DNA of 24,802 bases, taken from the IMG/VR virus record IMGVR_UViG_3300007345_000260, positions 1 to 24,802 of that record; one strand, given 5' to 3'. Below are positions 4,813 through 24,178 of the stretch, one piece after another. Every line of letters starts with the position of its first letter. Within the stretch, counting starts at the first letter, position 1. Position numbers and translations under genes: made by a program. The notes under the pieces were generated by a model. That model saw only the letters and a list, made by a program, of their open reading frames with translations, searched no databases and was not told the DNA's origin. The DNA is from a virus.

Positions 4813-5933
4813 TGACAGTTTCTTGGATAGGAGAAGTTATCTTTATCATAGGAGTAATAGCTCTTATTGCTATAGTTTGGTTTGTACAAGCTAAACTCTT
4901 AAAGAGGAAGACTACTATCTTAGATAGTATTAAACATTTTGCTAGTAATGTATCTAGTAACATTAATAGAAACTTCTTAGAAGTTATTAATAGTATATTC
5001 GTATTCGGTATTATAGTAGAAGCAACTACTGCTGCATGTGCAGTGTTTAATGTAGATTTCTTCTTACTTACTTTATCAAAATTCGTATTAATTGCTCTTA
5101 TCGAATGGGCTACTATGTCTTTTGGAATTTGGAATCTAAAAAGAATAGGAAAGTCTTGGGAAATGTTAGGATGTAACTTTAAAGTGAAAATGTCCAGACT
5201 TATTGTTTCTTTAGGTGTAATTACTTTACTCTCTTTAGGCAATTATTTTGGATATGTTACTCCTTATGCTATTTATATAGCTATAGGATTAGGTTTAATA
5301 TTTACTATAGTCCATATTACTACTAAGATGATTATGGTACATATTATTCCTGGAATTATCTTTCCAGTTATTTCAATTAGCTTTACTTTCTTATTAATTT
5401 ATTTCTCACTTGCTTCTATCGGAGCAGTGAATTTTGAAAGCCAAGAAAATATTAGAATCGGAGGCTTTATCTTAGATATTAATAAGTTAAGTCAGAGTCA
5501 GTTGACTATTACTTCTATTACTGTTATGTTAGCTTCTGTAGTATTAGGATTTACTTCCTTTTTCGGATATAATGCTAATACACAAGCAGACTTGGAATCG
5601 ACTATTTACGGTATCCAAAGATACATTAAGTCTTTTAGAGCTGCTTCTGCAGAACTTCTAAAAGCTTATGGAAGTAAAGAGTTCGATTTGGCTAGTTTCA
5701 TTAAAAAGATAGAAGCTAGTAAACACCGTAACTCTATTGAGTTATGGATTATTTCTGCTGAAGCGGAAAGATTAAAATTAATGAAAGCAGGATCTGAGCA
5801 TAAAGATATTACACCTGCTTATGTAAATTATTATAAAACAAAGTCTATTATGGATAGGTATATTCAAGAGACATTAGTAAAGATAAAAGAGGATTCAGAA
5901 TTTGATCCTGGAACATTTAAAATGAAAAAGTAA
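4812..5933 (+). CDS. Polytopic inner-membrane protein with helical cytoplasmic tail
   Basis: A 373-residue integral membrane protein of unknown family. A first membrane segment lies at about 8-26 and is followed by a basic stretch (KLLKRK). Further hydrophobic segments lie at about 57-77, 80-100, 133-152, 154-172, 176-206 and 231-250, giving about seven or eight passes. From about residue 255 the chain is soluble, helical and charged for about 115 residues. The start shares one base with the lipoprotein stop and its own stop shares one base with the following cyclotransferase-like gene. Candidate roles include remodelling the host membrane or blocking further infection; the sequence does not show a transporter motif. 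Confidence 0.8.
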   Translation: MTVSWIGEVIFIIGVIALIAIVWFVQAKLLKRKTTILDSIKHFASNVSSNINRNFLEVINSIFVFGIIVEATTAACAVFNVDFFLLTLSKFVLIALIEWATMSFGIWNLKRIGKSWEMLGCNFKVKMSRLIVSLGVITLLSLGNYFGYVTPYAIYIAIGLGLIFTIVHITTKMIMVHIIPGIIFPVISISFTFLLIYFSLASIGAVNFESQENIRIGGFILDINKLSQSQLTITSITVMLASVVLGFTSFFGYNANTQADLESTIYGIQRYIKSFRAASAELLKAYGSKEFDLASFIKKIEASKHRNSIELWIISAEAERLKLMKAGSEHKDITPAYVNYYKTKSIMDRYIQETLVKIKEDSEFDPGTFKMKK

Positions 5934-6436
5934 TGAAAAACAGAATAGCCGTATACGGCACATTGAAGAGAGGAAGAGGTAATTGGAATTATTTTCTAAA
6001 AGACTCTTCTACTTATGTAGGAACTGGTAGAACAGTAGTTAAAAGACATATTACTAACGGAGGAGGATTTCCTTTCGTATCCCAGACTCCTTACGAGAAT
6101 GGTGTGCATGTATTAGTCGAAATCTACTTAGTAGATGACGAAACATTAGAAAGTCTTAATAGTTTAGAAGGCTATTCTTACCCTAATTGTGCTTACAATC
6201 TCTATGAGAGGGGTGAGATAGAAGTTTACAGTAACTCTGAAGATAGAGTTGTAAACTGTACAATTTACTATAAAGATATTACTAGTCCTGCTAACTTCGG
6301 TAATACGTATATGGCTGAAGACGGGAATTGGGAAGACACTCAAACAGAAGATGAGGTGATGTCTCCCAATAACATTATTAATGAAAAATTAAATCAAACA
6401 TCAGAAACCTGGAAAAATATATTCATAAATGGATAA
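5933..6436 (+). CDS. AIG2/GGCT-like gamma-glutamylcyclotransferase
   Basis: A 167-residue protein of the gamma-glutamylcyclotransferase (AIG2/GGCT) fold. The signature VYGTLKRG lies at residues 7-14 with GNWNYF just after, GGFPFV at 44-49, then EIYLV (63-67) and LESLNSLEGY (72-81), where the conserved acidic residue of the family appears as Glu79. The family releases 5-oxoproline from gamma-glutamyl peptides or amines. In amidoligase gene clusters such enzymes are predicted to trim or remove gamma-glutamyl attachments. The last 30 residues or so are polar and extend beyond the core. It is tied by one-base and 8-base overlaps to its neighbours. A second, more divergent cyclotransferase lies one gene downstream. 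Confidence 0.85.
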   Translation: MKNRIAVYGTLKRGRGNWNYFLKDSSTYVGTGRTVVKRHITNGGGFPFVSQTPYENGVHVLVEIYLVDDETLESLNSLEGYSYPNCAYNLYERGEIEVYSNSEDRVVNCTIYYKDITSPANFGNTYMAEDGNWEDTQTEDEVMSPNNIINEKLNQTSETWKNIFING

Positions 6437-6908
6437 GAGAGAAAGAATAGTGAAGAAAAAATTAAGTAAAGAAGATAAGTATAATATTCTTTACGGGTTA
6501 TTATTAGCAGGAGCTGATATTACTGAAGAGGGTATAGTATATCAATGTGATCTTAGTCACATGATAGGCTGGTTAAAGACTTTCTTAGCTAAAATAGAAA
6601 TGAAATATACTCTAAAGAAGAATGTATTTCATATACCATTAGATATTTATTATTATGATAAATCTCCTAACGAATTATGCAGACAAATCCATCCTTATGG
6701 GTTTTTCTTATTATGGGCATTAAAATCAAATAGTCCATTAACTATTCCTTCTGGATATGACTTCTCTGAAGAATTCCAAGAAGCGATAGGAGTTCCTGTT
6801 ACTTATACAGTAGACAAAGAAGGGAACGGTTATATCACAATTACTTCAGACTGTATTGCACAGTTTTATTTTTTATTGTCGATAATTAAAATGTATCCAG
6901 TATATTAA
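6429..6908 (+). CDS. Hypothetical protein between two cyclotransferases
   Basis: A 159-residue protein with no family I recognise. A basic N-terminal 17 residues precede a hydrophobic helix with GLLLAGADI (residues 23-31). The middle is rich in Tyr and hydrophobics, with an IHPYGFFLLWAL segment (86-97), and the C-terminus again has a hydrophobic helix (about 145-155). The two helix-strand halves could be an internal repeat, but identity is low. It overlaps the upstream cyclotransferase by 8 bases and the downstream one by a single base (TAATG), so it is probably made together with them. Confidence 0.7.
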   Translation: MDKRERIVKKKLSKEDKYNILYGLLLAGADITEEGIVYQCDLSHMIGWLKTFLAKIEMKYTLKKNVFHIPLDIYYYDKSPNELCRQIHPYGFFLLWALKSNSPLTIPSGYDFSEEFQEAIGVPVTYTVDKEGNGYITITSDCIAQFYFLLSIIKMYPVY

Positions 6909-7597
6909 TGAGGCCACTTTCTATAAAAAAAGACATTATATTTGTAAATCTTTATAAAAAGTATTACGATAAAGATATTAGAAAAATGAAAGATGAGGAT
7001 ATAGTAAAATCTGATATAATTGGAATTTACAAAGACTATTCTAGTTGTCTTAATAGTGCTTTATCTTATTACACAAATATACCTGATTATTTCAATGTAA
7101 TCGGGTATGGTTCCTTGTTAAAGCTATCTGATGCTCAAAGAACTATGCCTTCTCTCGAAAAAGTGGAGTTGGGATATATTAAGGGATACAGACGCATTTT
7201 TAATTTATTAGGGACTACAGGTAATTATCTAAATGTTTATCATGTAGATTCTGATGAACCTATGCCTGTTGCCTATATGAAAATTAAGCAAGATGAAATT
7301 TATGATTTCGCATTTAGAGAAAGGAGATATCAATTAGAACTTACTACTCTTGATTCAGGAGAAGAAGCTTTAATATTATTAGCAAATGATTCTTGGATTG
7401 ATTATAATCAGCCTCCTATTCTTACTTATCTATTATTATGTATGACAGGTGCTCATGAATTAGGTGGGTATAAAGTACTTAATGAATTTATTAATACTAC
7501 TGATACTAATTTTGGACCTCTTGAGAGATGGTTAAAAACTAGTCAATTAGAAGGAGTTATTAATTACATAATCAGAAACGGACATACCAGTAGATAA
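6908..7597 (+). CDS. Second, longer GGCT/ChaC-like cyclotransferase
   Basis: A 229-residue protein with about 60 extra N-terminal residues before the cyclotransferase core. Core signatures are VIGYGSL (64-70), KGYRRIFNLLG (92-102) and FAFRERRYQLE (134-144), where Glu138 sits at the usual catalytic position of ChaC/GGCT-like enzymes (the F-RE--Y pattern). The fold releases 5-oxoproline from gamma-glutamyl compounds. It differs clearly from the enzyme at 5933 in length and motif spacing, so the pair is not a recent duplicate and may act on different substrates or steps. It ends exactly where the duplicated HPDCCGE module begins, with no gap. Confidence 0.8.
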   Translation: MRPLSIKKDIIFVNLYKKYYDKDIRKMKDEDIVKSDIIGIYKDYSSCLNSALSYYTNIPDYFNVIGYGSLLKLSDAQRTMPSLEKVELGYIKGYRRIFNLLGTTGNYLNVYHVDSDEPMPVAYMKIKQDEIYDFAFRERRYQLELTTLDSGEEALILLANDSWIDYNQPPILTYLLLCMTGAHELGGYKVLNEFINTTDTNFGPLERWLKTSQLEGVINYIIRNGHTSR

Positions 7598-8230
7598 ATG
7601 AACGCTCTATCTAAAGAATATTATATTATTAAAGCAGGAGATAATTATTTTCTTACTAAGAAATCAGAATATAATATCTCTGCAAACTTTAGCAATAACT
7701 TTAGAAACTTTATCATAGGAATAGATGATAAAAATAGGTTAATTTCTTATTATCTTTATAGGGAAGTTAACCCTGAAGAATATAAACGTTTTAAAACTGT
7801 AGAGTTAAAAACGGGATTTTTAGTAGAAATCTTTTATTCTGACTCTTCTTTCTTTAGAGTTAGTGACCCATTTACTAAGAAGTTAATAGTAAGGTTTAAC
7901 TATAACACTCATCCAGATTGCTGTGGAGAAAGTATTATTAAGTTAGACTACACTAGTATAGAGTCTTCTAAATTTAATTTAGATACTATTTTTGCTATAT
8001 GTTACCAATTAAAAGGAGATATAGGAAGTAACTTATCTTTCTTTCCTCAAGAGAACAGAAGTGAGGAAAATTACCTAAAAAATAGATTTAGTGATTTAGA
8101 ATTAAAAATATTTGAAAACAACTTTGTTACAAAGATTACTGATAGTTATTATGCAAAACATTACAAAGGCCCATATAAAAATTATTGGGACGTTGAAGAA
8201 TTCATAATAGATTTCTATAATGAAAGATAA
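7598..8230 (+). CDS. Module protein A, HPDCCGE motif (first copy)
   Basis: A 210-residue protein of unknown family. Its key feature is THPDCCGESII at residues 104-114, flanked by strand-like segments. The same HPDCCGE motif recurs in the protein at 8945, and both proteins also end with a related region containing (L/I)SF and KIT-D-YY. His, Asp, two adjacent Cys and Glu in one loop could bind metal or form a thiol active site; that is inference from residue chemistry. The gene starts directly after the second cyclotransferase stop and overlaps partner B by 11 bases. No signal peptide is visible. Confidence 0.75.
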   Translation: MNALSKEYYIIKAGDNYFLTKKSEYNISANFSNNFRNFIIGIDDKNRLISYYLYREVNPEEYKRFKTVELKTGFLVEIFYSDSSFFRVSDPFTKKLIVRFNYNTHPDCCGESIIKLDYTSIESSKFNLDTIFAICYQLKGDIGSNLSFFPQENRSEENYLKNRFSDLELKIFENNFVTKITDSYYAKHYKGPYKNYWDVEEFIIDFYNER

Positions 8231-8948
8231 AAAGTACGGTAAATATAGTATTAATATAAAAAACGTAGAATATGAATTTATCTACTTTAAGATCTCTAAT
8301 ATGAAATATGTCAAATCATTGAAAAATGATATATTAGAGATATTTCCTAGCTTAGATATGGATTACATTAAAAGTAATAATTACGCGTTAATCATAGGTG
8401 ACAATTGTGTAGAAATTTCTTATGTAGAGCAAGCTTATAAAATAGATTGTCCTTCAAGAGGATACTTATATAACAATATGAAATATATAGGAGGGTTTGA
8501 AACAGCCTTTTCTGAAAAAAGTAAAATAAGATATTATGAAAATTTATGTAATACGGATGTAAATCCTTATTTTATACCTACAACTATTGCTAAAGCAACA
8601 GAAAGAAGGGTTATAAGATTAACTGATTCAATAAACAAAGACGATTATAGAGATATTAACTTTTTCGTAGAGGGTAACAATGTACTCTGTTACAATTCTT
8701 CTGAGAGAGAATATTCGGATTATGTTATATTAAAATCCGTTTTAATTAATAGTTATTATAACGTTAATTATGCAGAAACTTTAAATATTATAGTACACTT
8801 ACCTGATTCTTCTGAAGATGATTATGATAAATTAAAAGAAGCGCATGTATTGTCTATGGGATTTGAAGATGTATATTCTTATTATAATTACAATTCTGAG
8901 AATCAAGTACATATTCTCAAAAAATCTTTAAAAGACATAGTTATATGA
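8220..8948 (+). CDS. Module protein B (first copy)
   Basis: A 242-residue protein of unknown family, paralogous to the protein at 9501. The C-terminal 90 residues share a clear pattern with the copy: GN-V--YNS-ER, then D--VL, then VHLP near 192-195, and a closing ILKKSL at 232-237. The strand-helix-strand order with an end in a hydrophobic strand loosely recalls acetyltransferase-like folds, but no acetyl-CoA loop is seen. It overlaps protein A upstream by 11 bases and the second A downstream by 4 bases. Always pairing with an A gene suggests the two products work together. Confidence 0.75.
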   Translation: MKDKKYGKYSINIKNVEYEFIYFKISNMKYVKSLKNDILEIFPSLDMDYIKSNNYALIIGDNCVEISYVEQAYKIDCPSRGYLYNNMKYIGGFETAFSEKSKIRYYENLCNTDVNPYFIPTTIAKATERRVIRLTDSINKDDYRDINFFVEGNNVLCYNSSEREYSDYVILKSVLINSYYNVNYAETLNIIVHLPDSSEDDYDKLKEAHVLSMGFEDVYSYYNYNSENQVHILKKSLKDIVI

Positions 8949-9508
8949 TCTATAAAGTAAACGGAAATTATTATAAAGAAGAATATCGTCAGGTAATAGG
9001 ACGAGAATTAATAGCTTTTCCTGTGAGAAAGCTAAACTTCAAAGAAGTTAAATTAAAAGATGGGTATATCTTTGTAAAATTAGATAACTCAGTAAGTTAT
9101 GTAAAGCCTTCTCAAGTAGAAGAGTCTGTTTTAATCGAGAAATATGTAATAAAAAGTAATGTTGATTCCAGTTACAATATTATTGAGAGTTTACATATAG
9201 TTACTATGCCAGATGGTAGACAAAATAAATTTATTATTCACCATCATCCTGATTGTTGTGGGGAAACTTTTATTAATCTAATGGACAGGCAAGATACTGA
9301 TGTAGAAACATTAGCTACTTTAATCCTGTTTAAACATAGTTCTCCAGGTTTAAATAATATTTCTTTTTACGAATCATTAGATATAAATTTTTCTTATATA
9401 GAAGATATTTTAAAATCTCTTTCTGAGTTACTGTCGTCTAAATATAATAAGATAAATTATAATAAGATAACAGATAATTACTATACAATATACATAGGAG
9501 ATGAATAA
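8945..9508 (+). CDS. Module protein A', HPDCCGE motif (second copy)
   Basis: A 187-residue paralogue of the protein at 7598. HHHPDCCGETFI occupies residues 99-110, in a strand context matching the first copy, and the C-terminus has NNISF (137-141) and NKITDNYY, both matched there. The N-terminal half has diverged strongly, so the duplication is old. The extra His residues before the motif strengthen a metal-binding reading, without proving it. It overlaps B upstream by ATGA and B' downstream by 8 bases. Function unknown. Confidence 0.75.
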   Translation: MIYKVNGNYYKEEYRQVIGRELIAFPVRKLNFKEVKLKDGYIFVKLDNSVSYVKPSQVEESVLIEKYVIKSNVDSSYNIIESLHIVTMPDGRQNKFIIHHHPDCCGETFINLMDRQDTDVETLATLILFKHSSPGLNNISFYESLDINFSYIEDILKSLSELLSSKYNKINYNKITDNYYTIYIGDE

Positions 9509-10136
9509 GAAAATATATGAACTTAAAGCAAACTGGCAAACAAAAGTATATAAATACTTAAATATCAATTTTGAAGGGAATCAATTATTGATAGCTTTAC
9601 AAAAAGAGATACCTGAGTGTATAAAAGATATTCCTAATTTATATGGAGTTTACTCTTTTTCAGATATTTTTTATAGTAAATTCTCTCATAACTTTTCCAT
9701 TAAGCTGAGTGATACTATGGAGGATGAAGAGATTAAAAAATTAATTCATGGAGAAGTTTGGAAGCTTATTAATTACGATTTTAGTATAATAAGTTATCCA
9801 GGAAATCTTGCTAATACTATTAAATACCGTTATAAAAAAGATAAAAAAGGGGAAAATCATTACGGCACTATTTCTTATTTTGGTAAAGGTAATACTGTCT
9901 TTCTATACAATTCTATGGAAAGAAGTAAATTAGATTTATTAGTATTATTTGTAATGTTGCTTAAACTAAATACACCTGCTATTAAGAATTTTGTAGTACA
10001 TCTTCCTAACAATGATTATGAGTATGAAGATACATACTGGAATCATATAGCAAATTTAGAATTTAATGTACTTTTTGAGTATGAAAATAATAACTCAGGA
10101 AATACTGTAGCTATTCTTAAAAAATCATTAGTATGA
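9501..10136 (+). CDS. Module protein B' (second copy)
   Basis: A 211-residue paralogue of the protein at 8220. The conserved C-terminal part includes KGNTVFLYNSMER (129-141), FVVHLPN (164-170) and VAILKKSL (203-210). The N-terminal parts no longer align by eye. Charged residues are spread through the middle (YKKDKKGENHYG). It completes the A-B-A'-B' run and overlaps its downstream neighbour by 4 bases. Function unknown; the constant order of A and B argues for a joint role. Confidence 0.75.
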   Translation: MNKKIYELKANWQTKVYKYLNINFEGNQLLIALQKEIPECIKDIPNLYGVYSFSDIFYSKFSHNFSIKLSDTMEDEEIKKLIHGEVWKLINYDFSIISYPGNLANTIKYRYKKDKKGENHYGTISYFGKGNTVFLYNSMERSKLDLLVLFVMLLKLNTPAIKNFVVHLPNNDYEYEDTYWNHIANLEFNVLFEYENNNSGNTVAILKKSLV

Positions 10137-14980: not shown

Positions 14981-15247
14981 ATGTTAAAAATTTATTCAAG
15001 TTACGAAGAATTCCTTAAAAGAGAAGACAAGAACATAAATGGAGTTACTCAAGCTTTTTATGACTCCTTTAAAGGGAAAATAAGTCTTAAAAATTCTTAT
15101 GGGTGCTGGAATTGTAACAAATGTTATAATTGTTATGACTGTGTAAACTGTTATAACTGTGAAGTTTGTTTACAATGTGAGAACTGCAAAAACTGTATAG
15201 GGTTAATAGAGGAAAAAGACGTAGATGGAAACGACGAAAACTGGTAA
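14981..15247 (+). CDS. Cys-every-third-residue repeat protein
   Basis: An 88-residue protein with eleven Cys spaced exactly three residues apart, at positions 42, 45, 48, 51, 54, 57, 60, 63, 66, 69 and 72. Each step reads Cys-(aromatic or other)-(Asn, Asp, Lys, Gln or Val), most often C-Y-N. Period-three repeats can build a tight beta-helix or a helical metal-thiolate ladder. The first 41 residues look like a normal folded or helical head, and the tail is acidic. No signal peptide, so the Cys are probably reduced and could bind metal. It overlaps the next gene by 23 bases. Confidence 0.75.
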   Translation: MLKIYSSYEEFLKREDKNINGVTQAFYDSFKGKISLKNSYGCWNCNKCYNCYDCVNCYNCEVCLQCENCKNCIGLIEEKDVDGNDENW

Positions 15248-16158: not shown

Positions 16159-17154
16159 ATGTTAGAAACCATTATTAGAAATAGGATGAGGAGAGTAAAT
16201 GGTATGTCTAATAATATACCTTTTCCTTTTCCTAAAATAGAAAAGATTTTACCTGGTATAGAAAGAGAACAGATACATTATGTAACTGGAGGTACTGGTA
16301 CAGGTAAAACAAAATTAACAAAAAAACTTTATGTATTTACTCCCATAGAAGAAGCATTAAAAGATGATAATATAGATCTTAAAATAATATATTTTGCTTT
16401 AGAGGAATCTAGAGAAAGATTTGTTTTAAGTATGTATTCTTATTTTTTATACAAGTATTATGGGCTAGATAAAACTGTAAATCAGTTATTATCTATAGGA
16501 AAAGAAGAACTTACTATTTCTGAGATGGATCTAATTACTGAGATTACTCCTTTTATAGAGGATATATTAAAGTATATTGATATTGTAACAGAAGTAAGAA
16601 ATCCTACAGGCATATATTACCGTGTTAAATCTTTTTTAGATAAAACTGGTAAAACCTCTCACAAAATGAGAGAAATAGATGGAAAAGAAGTTAAGGTTAG
16701 AGATAAATATACTCCTGATCATGAGAATAGATATACTATTATTGTAGTAGATCACATGTCTTTATTGAGTACGGAGAAAGATTGTCCTACTTTACATTCT
16801 TCTATGTCTAGAATGTCTTCTACTTATTTCCTAGATTTAAGAGATTTTTATAAATGTACTTGTGTAGGAGTAGTACAGCAGATGGCTCAACAAGAAAGTG
16901 TAGATCACTTTAAGTACAACAAAATAGAGCCTTCTTTACAAGGTATAGCAGACAATAAGACTATAACGAGAGATGCAAATAAAGTATTTGGTTGTTTTTT
17001 ACCAGCTAGATATGATTTAGGCACTTACAGAAAAGTTAAAGTTACAAATAATTTATTCTCTTTTTCTATTATCAAAAATAGAGAAGGGTTATCAAATATT
17101 CACCTTCTATTAGACTTTACGGGTTCAGTAGGAGATTACTCAGAATTTAAATAA
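16159..17154 (+). CDS. dnaB: DnaB-like replicative helicase (RecA-fold core)
   Basis: A 331-residue SF4-type helicase lacking the N-terminal domain of bacterial DnaB. After a short leader, IHYVTGGTGTGKTKL carries Walker A (44-51). ALEESRERF (80-88) matches the motif 1a Glu region, IIVVDH (194-199) is Walker B, VVQQMAQQES (238-247) is motif 3 and IIKNREG (304-310) is motif 4 with the arginine that contacts nucleotide. It should form hexamers that unwind DNA 5' to 3' ahead of the polymerase. Its neighbours (RecA-like ATPase, primase, UDG) support a replication block. The insertion near 160-190 is highly charged and unlike the core. Confidence 0.87.
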   Translation: MLETIIRNRMRRVNGMSNNIPFPFPKIEKILPGIEREQIHYVTGGTGTGKTKLTKKLYVFTPIEEALKDDNIDLKIIYFALEESRERFVLSMYSYFLYKYYGLDKTVNQLLSIGKEELTISEMDLITEITPFIEDILKYIDIVTEVRNPTGIYYRVKSFLDKTGKTSHKMREIDGKEVKVRDKYTPDHENRYTIIVVDHMSLLSTEKDCPTLHSSMSRMSSTYFLDLRDFYKCTCVGVVQQMAQQESVDHFKYNKIEPSLQGIADNKTITRDANKVFGCFLPARYDLGTYRKVKVTNNLFSFSIIKNREGLSNIHLLLDFTGSVGDYSEFK

Positions 17155-18931: not shown

Positions 18932-19663
18932 ATGAATATCACTATCGGAACAGATCCAGAATTTTTTGTAGTAGATACTATGGGAAAATATATTCCCCCT
19001 AAATTTGTGACTAAAGGAACTAAGAAAATTCCTCAAAGATACTCAAAAGGGGTGATTCATCAAGATGCTGCTGCTGTAGAATTTAGCATTCTTCCTTGCG
19101 ATAATGCAGAAGACTTTAGTGCTAATATCCAAGAAGCATTAGATAGTATTTTTATTAATCCTTATTTTAAAATGTATCCTTATACATCTATAAAATTAGA
19201 TGATCAAATTATTTCAATGGATTCTTCTTTATCAGAAGTAGGATGCCAACCTGATTATAAATTTATTGAAAGTAAAAGGGTAAAAAGAAAATTAACTTAT
19301 AACAATACTAATTGGAGAATGGCAGGAGGTCATATTCATATTGGTATAGGATTTATTAAAAGTGATTCTTTATTAGAGCAAATTATTACAGACTTAGATA
19401 ATAAATTTATGTCTTGGTATAGAGAGCAAGATTTTTATCATGCTGAGACTGAGGCAATTAGAGAAGCACATTATGGAGATAATGGAGTATTTAGACAAAA
19501 GAAATACGGATTAGAATACAGAACTCCTTCTATGGCTTGGATTAAAACTCATGAAGATAGAGTTAATGTATTTAATAAAATTTATGAAATTGTAAAACCT
19601 TACTCATGTATAGTTTCGGAGGAGAAGGAAAAGAGAGATATTGCTACTACGAGAATATCTTAG
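18932..19663 (+). CDS. Glutamine-synthetase-like amidoligase (COOH-NH2 ligase type 2)
   Basis: A 243-residue enzyme of the phage amidoligase family (phiEco32-like COOH-NH2 ligase type 2), which uses a glutamine-synthetase-like fold to join a carboxyl to an amine with ATP. Signatures in order are GTDPEFF (6-12, metal-binding Glu10), HQDAAAVEFS (43-52, with Asp45 and Glu50), GGHIHIG (132-138) and LEYRTPSMAW (194-203). All expected acidic and His residues are present. The family is predicted to make peptide or amide links on metabolites or proteins. It is the first gene after the terminator, and its last 58 bases overlap the primase gene, so its expression is coupled to replication genes. Confidence 0.9.
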   Translation: MNITIGTDPEFFVVDTMGKYIPPKFVTKGTKKIPQRYSKGVIHQDAAAVEFSILPCDNAEDFSANIQEALDSIFINPYFKMYPYTSIKLDDQIISMDSSLSEVGCQPDYKFIESKRVKRKLTYNNTNWRMAGGHIHIGIGFIKSDSLLEQIITDLDNKFMSWYREQDFYHAETEAIREAHYGDNGVFRQKKYGLEYRTPSMAWIKTHEDRVNVFNKIYEIVKPYSCIVSEEKEKRDIATTRIS

Positions 19664-21271: not shown

Positions 21272-21567
21272 TAGATCATAAAAATTATAAAAAATATCCT
21301 AGAGATTTTAAAAAGAATTTTAAAAAAATATTTAAGATATCTTTTATATCCTCTGATGGAATTATTATTACTAGTGATGATGATATTAACTTAGAATATC
21401 TAAAACTATTTGATACTTTCTATGAAGTATTTATACAGTTAAGATCTAGAAGATCTAATAATTTAGATTTAAATTGGAATGATTTCTGTCAGTTTATTTA
21501 TGATTTAAACACTAATTTTTATTATTTCATTGAAGAGAAAAAATGCGGGATATGCATAAACCGTTAA
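21259..21567 (+). CDS. Small hypothetical protein
   Basis: A 102-residue protein with a strongly basic N-terminus (KNYKKYPRDFKKNFKKIFK, residues 8-26), an acidic DDDIN turn, and a helical aromatic C-terminal half. Two Cys form a CGIC pair near the end (residues 97-100), overlapping the next gene's start by 25 bases. It lies between UDG and the ATP-grasp ligase in a continuous overlapping run. No family recognised. Confidence 0.6.
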   Translation: MAQIIDHKNYKKYPRDFKKNFKKIFKISFISSDGIIITSDDDINLEYLKLFDTFYEVFIQLRSRRSNNLDLNWNDFCQFIYDLNTNFYYFIEEKKCGICINR

Positions 21568-22367
21568 GAAGAAGAGCAAGAGGATATTTTGGTATAACAC
21601 AGCCATCTTATTCTAAATTAACTAGAGACTTTCCTGCTAAGAAGATTAGACAGTTGACTGGAGGACACTCTAAAGTCTTATTAAGATTTGGTTATTCTGG
21701 AAATTTTCCTGTTACAGATGATGAAGGTTATATCTTTGTAAACAGCAGAGAAAGTATTAATATTGCTAAGAACAAAAGCAAGACTAAAGAGTTGCTTAAA
21801 GAATTAGGAATACCTACCCCTAATTGGGCTATTTTAAGCGATTTAAGAGACTTTTATTCTTTACGCTTCCCTTTATATTCTAAAACATTTTACGGCTCTA
21901 GAGGGCGTGGAATGGTCTTTATAGAAAATGAAGAAAAGCTTAAAGAACATTACGAAAACCATGACTCTTCAATAGGTAGAATTATAGAAGAGAGATGTAA
22001 TTATGTTAGAGAATATGGGATTCATGTTTCTAGTGCTAGTGGTATTTTTCATGCTGTCAGAAAGATGTTGAAATCTGAAGCAGAAGATAGATGGTTTAGA
22101 AATAGTAATAACTGTGTTTTCTATTTAGAAGACAATGAACATTTTAACAAACCAGAATGCTGGGAAGAGATAGAAACTCAATTACTGAGATTTATGGATA
22201 AAACTGGGTTAGATATAGGAAGATTCGATGTCAAAGTAAATAACTCTGGTAAATTATTTAGTGTATTAGAGGTTAATACTTCTCCTTCTATTGAAGGAGA
22301 AATAGTTTATAATAAATACAAAAGAGAACTGGAAAAAATAATAATATGTGCGGCATCGCAGGTATAA
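21543..22367 (+). CDS. RimK-like ATP-grasp ligase
   Basis: A 274-residue ATP-grasp ligase. Visible elements are the NKSKTKELLKELGIPTPNW segment (77-95), YSKTFYGSRGRGMVFI (112-127, ATP-binding Lys114 and the Gly-rich loop), IIEERCNYVREYGIHV (147-162), GRFDVKV (226-232) and EVNTSPSIEG (243-252, metal-binding Glu243 and Asn245). These match RimK/glutamate-ligase types, which join amino acids or peptides to a carboxyl through an acyl phosphate. The first 20 residues are basic. It overlaps the GAT-II gene by 22 bases, so both are probably made together. The substrate is not shown by the sequence. Confidence 0.9.
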   Translation: MRDMHKPLRRRARGYFGITQPSYSKLTRDFPAKKIRQLTGGHSKVLLRFGYSGNFPVTDDEGYIFVNSRESINIAKNKSKTKELLKELGIPTPNWAILSDLRDFYSLRFPLYSKTFYGSRGRGMVFIENEEKLKEHYENHDSSIGRIIEERCNYVREYGIHVSSASGIFHAVRKMLKSEAEDRWFRNSNNCVFYLEDNEHFNKPECWEEIETQLLRFMDKTGLDIGRFDVKVNNSGKLFSVLEVNTSPSIEGEIVYNKYKRELEKIIICAASQV

Positions 22368-24178
22368 TAAAAAATGCTAATTTAAACGAATTAGATATTT
22401 ATAAAGGTTATTTATTATGGATTAATATGGCAGAGAGAGGCAGAACAGCACATGGCTGTTCTGTCATTGATACTTCTGAAAATGTTATTAATTATTATAA
22501 ATGCGGATCTGAAAATAAAGAACCTAAAAAGAGTTCTGAAAATGATGAAGCATTACAAATGTTAGGTAAATGTGTTAACTCTCTTTCTGATCCTAGGATT
22601 ATGTTTGTTCATGATAGAGCAGCTTCTACTTTTGCAGGTGGAACGAATAACAGAGAAAACACTCAACCTTTAATAGTACCTTTTAATGATGAAGATCATA
22701 TCTCTTTAATGCATAATGGTACTATCCATAACATGGAAGATATTTATTTTAAACAAACTGGAAAAAATCCAGATCCCAAATTATCTGATTCTTATTTAGC
22801 AGCTCTCCTTTTCCAAGAAGAGAAATATGATTGGTTAGCTAATTATATAGGTGCTGCTTCTTTAGTGTGGTATAATACTGCTACAAAGAAAGTTTATATG
22901 TGGAGAGGGCAATCTCCAGATTATCAAGACGATAAACTTTTGTCTGAAGAAAGGCCACTTTATTATGTTACAAAAAAAGATAGGATAGAGTTTGCTTCTA
23001 CTATAGAAGCATTATTTAACACTGATCTAGATCCTGATTTAGATTCTATACTTAGTTTACCAGCTAATACTTTATTTAGTGTTAATTTGGAAAATTTAGA
23101 GTTAGAAGAGATTGTAAAATTAGACAGAAGTAAAGCTCATCAAAAAGAGAGCTATCATCATGGAAGTTATGGAGGTTATGGTGGATATGGTGGATATGGC
23201 AGCCAGAATAGATATAACCCTTATCAAGGAATGAGAAGACCTACTCAGAATAAACCTTCCTTACCTAAAAAAGTACAACCTTTAGATCATAATGCATATT
23301 TAAAAAGCCAAGACTTAGGAGGACTTTTTGAAGCTATTCCCTTTTGTATTAATTATCCTGATAACTATAATGATATTATTTCTAGATTACCTGTTGAAGC
23401 TGTTTATATGACAGAATTTAAAAGTAATTTAAGAGATTCTAAAATTAATTTGTTTGCAGGTCTATATTACAATAATGGAGGTTTGATGCATTCTCAATTT
23501 CCTGTTTACTCTTCTTTAGCTGATTATGATAACTTCCCTCCTATAGCAGACAATTATTTAAATATTCCTTATCTAGTAAGTAATGTTACAAGTAATGTAC
23601 TTAGTTTTAAATTCAAAAAAGAGCTAGTAGAAGAGTATTTCTGGAAGGGTCTTCTATGCAAAGATAAAGAAAGCTTCTTAAAATTAGAATACTTAGTAAA
23701 TAATAATAAATCTACTCAAGTTATTACAGCATTAGAGTTATCTACTTATTTGAAATGTCCTACTTTTTACGGAGTAATCATTGATAATAATAGAGTTAAC
23801 TTTACTGTGTCAGATACTTACTATAAAGGTATGTTATTAAGTAGTCATTTTAAAAACTATATAGAAATATTTCCTTATACTAACATTAATTATAATTACC
23901 AGAACAGAAGTCTTACTAACAATTATTATAATTATTGCTTAGCTACTTTCTTGAGAGGCATATTTAACGGTGTATTTAGTATGAGAAATTATGAAGAATT
24001 AATTTCCCCTATTAACGTAGCAGGTTTAGATAACATATTATATGGAAAATACTCTTTATCTGATTTAAAATCTAAGATAGCAGAAAAAATGAAATCATTA
24101 GATTCTAGTATATCTATAAAGGATACTAAAATCAAACTTCATAAAATATTTTTAGGCAATGAGAGCACCGAGAAATAA
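22346..24178 (+). CDS. Class II glutamine amidotransferase fused to an unknown C-terminal domain
   Basis: A 610-residue protein. The N-terminal Ntn-hydrolase domain (about 1-255) begins MCGIAGI, so Cys2 becomes the nucleophile after Met removal. FVHDRAAST (87-95), LMHNGTIHN (121-129, oxyanion Asn124/Gly125) and DSYLAALL (148-155) complete the GAT-II site, which releases ammonia from glutamine. A flexible linker (about 262-312) contains a Tyr-Gly-Gly repeat and then Pro/Lys-rich sequence. The last 300 residues form a domain I do not recognise; it is not an asparagine synthetase or a sugar isomerase. Ammonia could feed a ligase such as the neighbouring ATP-grasp enzyme; alternatively the domain cleaves gamma-glutamyl amides. 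Confidence 0.9.
   Translation: MCGIAGIIKNANLNELDIYKGYLLWINMAERGRTAHGCSVIDTSENVINYYKCGSENKEPKKSSENDEALQMLGKCVNSLSDPRIMFVHDRAASTFAGGTNNRENTQPLIVPFNDEDHISLMHNGTIHNMEDIYFKQTGKNPDPKLSDSYLAALLFQEEKYDWLANYIGAASLVWYNTATKKVYMWRGQSPDYQDDKLLSEERPLYYVTKKDRIEFASTIEALFNTDLDPDLDSILSLPANTLFSVNLENLELEEIVKLDRSKAHQKESYHHGSYGGYGGYGGYGSQNRYNPYQGMRRPTQNKPSLPKKVQPLDHNAYLKSQDLGGLFEAIPFCINYPDNYNDIISRLPVEAVYMTEFKSNLRDSKINLFAGLYYNNGGLMHSQFPVYSSLADYDNFPPIADNYLNIPYLVSNVTSNVLSFKFKKELVEEYFWKGLLCKDKESFLKLEYLVNNNKSTQVITALELSTYLKCPTFYGVIIDNNRVNFTVSDTYYKGMLLSSHFKNYIEIFPYTNINYNYQNRSLTNNYYNYCLATFLRGIFNGVFSMRNYEELISPINVAGLDNILYGKYSLSDLKSKIAEKMKSLDSSISIKDTKIKLHKIFLGNESTEK
23168..23200 (+). repeat. In-frame Tyr-Gly-Gly repeat in the GAT-II linker
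   Basis: Three and two-thirds copies of a 9-base TATGGNGGN unit encode YGG-YGG-YGG-YG (residues 275-285). Third bases vary between copies, so slippage is not recent or is limited. It forms a flexible aromatic-glycine linker between the amidotransferase and the C-terminal domain. Confidence 0.8.

Follow-up and report, generated by a model that had tools for sequence, protein, structure and literature searches.

A tandem A-B gene pair and a previously unnamed HPDCCG protein family in crAss-like phages

Introduction

Four co-oriented genes whose stop/start junctions overlap or abut lie in an uncultivated virus record of 24,802 bases, the whole of which was analysed here and is called the window. 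An earlier note on this DNA had described them as an A-B-A'-B' module, derived by old duplication of a gene pair, with an HPDCCGE motif for which it knew no described family. The locus raises the questions of what family these proteins represent, whether A and B are themselves related, and what the two might do together. Judged by its gene content, the window is a fragment of a crAss-like phage, a placement made because it carries PolA, DnaB, AAA, primase, UDG and SNF2-like genes. Its closest PolA matches are Crassvirales (cr111_1 and cr108_1), and its core genes correspond to the replication block given for Crassvirales in PMC7886860. A second IMG/VR contig, 3300025671_000404 (L008, 27.7 kb), shares the left end of the window, where PolA is 100% identical across the aligned part, and continues this phage further to the left; L009-L011, retrieved through a chance PolA peptide, are unrelated phages.

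Results

The four open reading frames were found on the + strand where the earlier note had placed them, with the shared motifs that it had claimed: A (7598..8230, 210 aa), B (8220..8948, 242 aa), A' (8945..9508, 187 aa) and B' (9501..10136, 211 aa). The HPDCCGE motif occupies residues 105-111 of A (7910..7930) and residues 101-107 of A' (9245..9265), and the two proteins also have KITD-x-YY near the C-terminus in common. B carries the signature GNNVLCYNSSER (8673..8708), which aligns with HPDCCG and the next strand in the relatives described below, and a C-terminal signature running from IIVHLP to YYNYNSENQVHILKKSL (8787..8930); the counterparts in B' are GNTVFLYNSMER (9888..9923) and FVVHLP to YENNNSGNTVAILKKSL (9990..10130), all on the + strand. 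By local alignment A and A' score z = 7.5 and B and B' score z = 16, with 0 of 2000 shuffles as good in either case. The BLASTP match of A to A' (E 1e-5) covers only 18 aa around the motif, and that of B to B' (E 2e-14) reaches 33% identity over 129 aa. On these alignments A is homologous to A' and B to B', and an old duplication of the pair with its order conserved, as had been proposed, is supported. A match of A' to the amidotransferase C-terminus (z 4.3) was dropped, the two having no motif in common.

The view that no described family accounts for these proteins held at the level of sequence: A and B have no family match in Pfam, PHROGs, NCBIfam, PADLOC or PDB sequences, the last also when searched with profiles. 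Single-protein searches with A, B, A' and B' gave nothing credible among 50,697 annotated phage records, nor did those with A and A' in IMG/VR. The relatives reported here were retrieved from IMG/VR with the motif of A alone. The exact HPDCCGE DNA pattern gave three matches in IMG/VR and 64 contig matches in 84,980 genomes, all in chance contexts. Relaxed to HPDCCG, the pattern occurs in 74 IMG/VR stretches, five of which (L168, L169, L175, L215 and L217) encode a coherent domain, LFxxxxHPDCCGxxL...HL...YxNxNSGN, and all five come from one crAss-like phage lineage. Two other apparent finds, L235 and the L197/L158 group, were judged to be chance. A scan of IMG/VR with the C-terminal signature returned L175 itself only, the HPDCCG relatives used as queries against phages gave no match, and we found no account of the family in the literature. 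The contigs of the relatives keep the gene order of the window (PolA, replication gene, DnaB, AAA, primase) at about 25-40% identity, and likewise have GGACT, ATP-grasp, COOH-NH2 ligase and GATase genes where the contig reaches. This is a real phage protein family that had not been named.

The wider comparison narrows the motif. HPDCCGE is indeed shared by A and A', as first noticed, but its Glu is not conserved in the wider relatives and the core is HPDCCG, with His, Pro, Asp, the Cys-Cys pair and Gly all retained. The metal or thiol active site that the earlier note had suggested, with this Glu among its residues, stays a conjecture. The core is invariant in seven proteins whose identity elsewhere is about 20-40%. 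Between A and A' the DNA of HPDCCGE differs at three sites, all of them third codon positions, and a difference confined to third positions is consistent with selection on the protein. Both observations bear on the idea that these are fast-evolving early genes without enzymatic function, encoding for instance proteins for binding or host takeover, and that HPDCCG serves folding alone. The very fast divergence of the family, the absence of a cofactor motif and the position of the relatives' genes among small unknown genes within a DnaB insertion would suit such genes; the invariant core and the third-position pattern of its codons tell against them, and we regard this reading as unlikely.

The HPDCCG turn is present in A and A' and absent from B and B'; VHL...YxNxNSGNxI is present in B and B' (0 of 1000 shuffles), with no clear trace in A and A'. 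In the aligned sequences the two signatures are thus partitioned between A (HPDCCG) and B (C-terminal). Most of the five relatives bear both, and the Y-x-N-x-NSGN turn of B' is common to HPDCCG relatives. An HMM of the five relatives, searched against 163 sources, placed all four window proteins among its top matches (A' 2e-4, B' 6e-4, A 6.5e-3, B 0.03). B and B' match this HMM without having the motif, and 0 of 1000 shuffles did as well. A reverse HMM, made from B, B' and the gene downstream in L215 and so containing no HPDCCG, found L175 (5e-4) and L215 (0.024) as its next best matches. L215 itself has an HPDCCG gene followed directly by this motif-less paralog (E 4e-4). Because the relatives retrieved through the motif of A proved to be homologous to B, A and B can be seen as versions of one ancestral protein, and we consider it likely from these comparisons that the two share common ancestry as diverged versions of a single domain.

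The link is less direct on the side of A. Once the motif is masked, neither A nor A' matches the family HMM, and on the downstream side of the motif A scores like shuffled sequence (z 0.1) and A' weakly above it (z 2.8), so that the connection of A to the family comes from an exact motif of six to seven residues together with genomic context. One could suppose that A is no paralog of B but an unrelated neighbour whose HPDCCG turn arose by convergence, for example as a small metal knuckle, and that only B derives from the HPDCCG family; the lack of clear family similarity in A beyond the motif speaks for such a proposal. It would also require that proteins retrieved by the motif of A happen to be homologs of its neighbour B, in the same lineage, which is a very unlikely coincidence, and a weak blastp match of A to L175 (51 columns, E 0.002) takes in some 33 residues ahead of the motif. 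We judge convergence quite unlikely.

Common ancestry might also have come about by fission, an ancestral protein having split in two to give A and B. In blastp against L175, A matches the region of residues 102-149 and B' that of residues 185-221, that is, different halves, the N-terminal/motif half by A and the C-terminal half by B. Each of the four proteins nevertheless has the length of a whole relative (187-242 aa in the window, against 213 aa for L215 and 232 aa for L175), and the alignment of B runs through the position of the motif with a GNxVxxYNS segment of its own. Because each protein is of whole-relative length, duplication with reciprocal decay is preferred to fission, which we take to be very improbable.

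A candidate fold came from an AlphaFold model of L175 built from nine sequences. The model has a mean pLDDT of 58, with values of 67-90 over about residues 150-220; a model of the A' domain reached pLDDT 45. In a Foldseek search of the PDB with the L175 model, the best 50 listed matches were all GNATs (top E 2.9e-3, probability 1.0), and VIA-align gave Z up to 8.5 against GNATs, with an rmsd of 3.2 over 87 aa, a Z near 8 being one that, by the tool's own warning, may reflect a common arrangement. HPDCCG forms a turn joining two strands in the model, VHLS closes a strand ahead of a helix, and NNNSGN makes up the turn of a hairpin. The fold match is thus a lead, short of proof, with which the order of elements in the sequence (strand VHLS, helix, GF, hairpin) agrees. 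The CoA pyrophosphate loop [R/Q]xxGx[G/A] is absent from nine of nine family proteins, and sequence profiles including Acetyltransf_1 and the Pfam GNAT models do not match them; for these two reasons we do not file the family as GNAT acetyltransferases. From this moderate model of L175 the family probably has a GNAT-like fold, and a scaffold of this kind may underlie its activity. The earlier note had named a confident match to a well-known family as evidence against its reading; what was found is a weak form of this, a fold resemblance reached through a moderate-confidence model of one relative, and no match in sequence.

The GNAT fold is also known from enzymes whose chemistry and active-site nucleophiles are different (PMC8072286), and one of the phage enzymes of the superfamily, Mom, makes an unusual DNA modification (PMC7824862, PMC8072286). 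It is conceivable that HPDCCG is a metal site and that A and B are metal-dependent GNAT-fold modification enzymes like Mom of phage Mu, which modifies DNA adenine, with no part in gamma-glutamyl metabolism. The GNAT-like match of the L175 model is in line with this proposal, as is the composition of the motif. Metals are commonly bound by Cys, His and Asp, and Mom was reported by Karambelkar et al. (2020) to bind iron. Against it, the DNA-modification families in the libraries searched were not matched, and we do not think it at all likely.

The genomic setting includes cyclotransferase and amidoligase genes. A begins directly after a second cyclotransferase-like gene (6908..7597, +; YGSL motif, phrog_2520 E 1e-3), which bears out the earlier note on this point, and a gamma-glutamyl cyclotransferase-like (GGACT) gene lies at 5933..6436 (+; Pfam PF06094, E 1.4e-14). 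Farther along the + strand are genes for a phiEco32-like COOH-NH2 ligase (18932..19663, PF14395 E 8e-6), an ATP-grasp ligase (21543..22367, PF02222 E 3e-6) and a class II glutamine amidotransferase (22346..24178, PF13522 E 5e-7). The last has a Gly/Tyr-rich linker (HHGSYGGYGGYGGYGSQNRYNPYQG) and a C-terminal portion some 280 residues long. Elsewhere in the window, a small open reading frame at 14981-15247 encodes Cys at almost every third residue (CWNCNKCYNCYDCVNCYNCEVCLQCENCKNC).

The amidoligase/cyclotransferase cluster was found in all three phages with enough sequence (the window and the two long relatives, G001 and G002). In G001 and G002 the COOH-NH2 ligase and GGACT genes lie roughly 6-9 kb downstream of the HPDCCG gene on the same strand; the sequence of G003 stops about 5 kb downstream, short of this distance. 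The crAss-like cr108_1 and L020 have amidoligase genes and no detectable HPDCCG gene, and no cyclotransferase gene directly neighbours the HPDCCG gene of the relatives, whereas one does neighbour A in the window. The association of HPDCCG genes with amide chemistry is plausible but not specific.

In the relatives the HPDCCG gene instead sits, with other small genes, in an insertion of ~2.3-2.7 kb that splits the Walker A region of DnaB at the position of residue 50 of the window DnaB, which is itself intact (16159-17154). The first DnaB piece ends ...ANSKVG and the second restarts KTQ.ADWLF. Both flanking pieces were seen in L175 (57-269 and 2651-3601, +), L169 (4094-4204 and 6454 on, +) and L217 (6234-6344 and 3581-3655, -), and L168 and L215 are consistent with the same arrangement. 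Introns have been reported in crAss-like phages (PMC7886860); Rfam models, introns included, gave no match in the DnaB insertions.

In the region of the DnaB insertion, L215 also encodes a GIY-YIG-like endonuclease. Beside the HPDCCG gene of L168 is a recognisable GNAT (883-1551, PF00583 E 2e-6), whose C-terminal DNPVPSL...NGVETDK segment is found again in L175 (1789-2076) and L215 (234-575), there encoded by small genes of its own. Small conserved TTDCC...VVSPGE...LGF proteins are encoded beside the HPDCCG gene in L175 (1477-1776) and L217 (4730-5053); by eye these TTDCC-type genes and L175b/L168c seemed to have the same layout, for which hhalign gave no support.

Discussion

These observations can be assembled into one account of the locus. 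The ancestor would have been a single phage protein with an HPDCCG strand-turn-strand and a C-terminal helix, strand and hairpin bearing VHL[SP] and Y-x-N-x-NSGN-x-I, on a fold that, from the L175 model, was probably GNAT-like and free of the acetyl-CoA pyrophosphate loop. After a duplication, A would have kept HPDCCG, and B would have lost it and kept the C-terminal signature; the A-B pair would then have been duplicated in tandem, an order of events suggested by the similarities among the four proteins. An A:B heteromer would reunite the two half-signatures in one putative active site, to which A might contribute HPDCCG, its Cys either acting together with His/Asp as a nucleophile or a general acid or else binding a metal, and B might contribute VHL[SP]/NSGN. 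Such a site could carry out acyl or aminoacyl transfer within the phage amidoligase/gamma-glutamyl pathway.

We hold the parts of this account with different confidence. A heteromeric role, which the earlier note had inferred from the conserved gene order, is better supported than before because A and B appear to be paralogs of a domain that has both signatures, and it is not required by the family because the relatives have both in one chain; we adopt the A:B heteromer with complementary half-signatures as the best-supported working model, one whose chances are about even. A role of A and B in the amide pathway, suggested by neighbourhood and co-occurrence, is possible and rather doubtful. 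The account as a whole, from one ancestor and a GNAT-like fold to a heteromer engaged in acyl or aminoacyl transfer, is the best explanation that we can offer and is tentative, with a chance somewhat short of even. A more far-reaching form of it, a CoA-independent GNAT-fold transferase with its active site split by gene duplication over the obligate partners A (thiol/HPDCCG half) and B (acceptor half), is improbable. If true, a split-site pair would have been duplicated again, and Cys chemistry would transfer acyl or gamma-glutamyl groups as part of amide synthesis by the phage.

The locus offers an undescribed crAss-like phage protein family defined by a strictly conserved HPDCCG, a case in which duplication and the ensuing reciprocal loss of complementary signatures can be tested, and a possible way into the unexplained amidoligase/cyclotransferase pathways that phages encode.

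Among known systems, the GNAT fold is a V-splayed beta sheet ordered beta4-alpha3-beta5-alpha4-beta6-beta7, with the CoA pyrophosphate loop between beta4 and alpha3, and we know of no GNAT with an invariant HPDCCG turn. In its moderate-confidence model, L175 resembles this superfamily in the strand and helix order of its C-terminal 100 residues and in its PDB fold matches; the nine members of the HPDCCG family differ from it in having neither the loop nor a Pfam GNAT match. Mom is, as A and B may be, a phage-encoded GNAT-like protein with possible metal or thiol residues; unlike it, A and B have amidoligase genes as neighbours, and they showed no sequence match to Mom in the libraries searched. 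The COOH-NH2 ligase, ATP-grasp, GATase and GGCT genes of phiEco32-like amidoligase clusters are found in the window and in two long relatives, and to our knowledge HPDCCG/B genes have not been described in such clusters. There is also a likeness to the HPDCCG family of L175, L215, L169, L217 and L168, which has HPDCCG, VHL and YxNxNSGN in common with the window and belongs to the same lineage, with synteny of PolA, DnaB, AAA and amidoligase genes. The relatives have a single chain with both signatures, encoded inside the DnaB insertion; in the window A and B each hold one of the two, their genes lie outside DnaB, and the divided pair is present twice.
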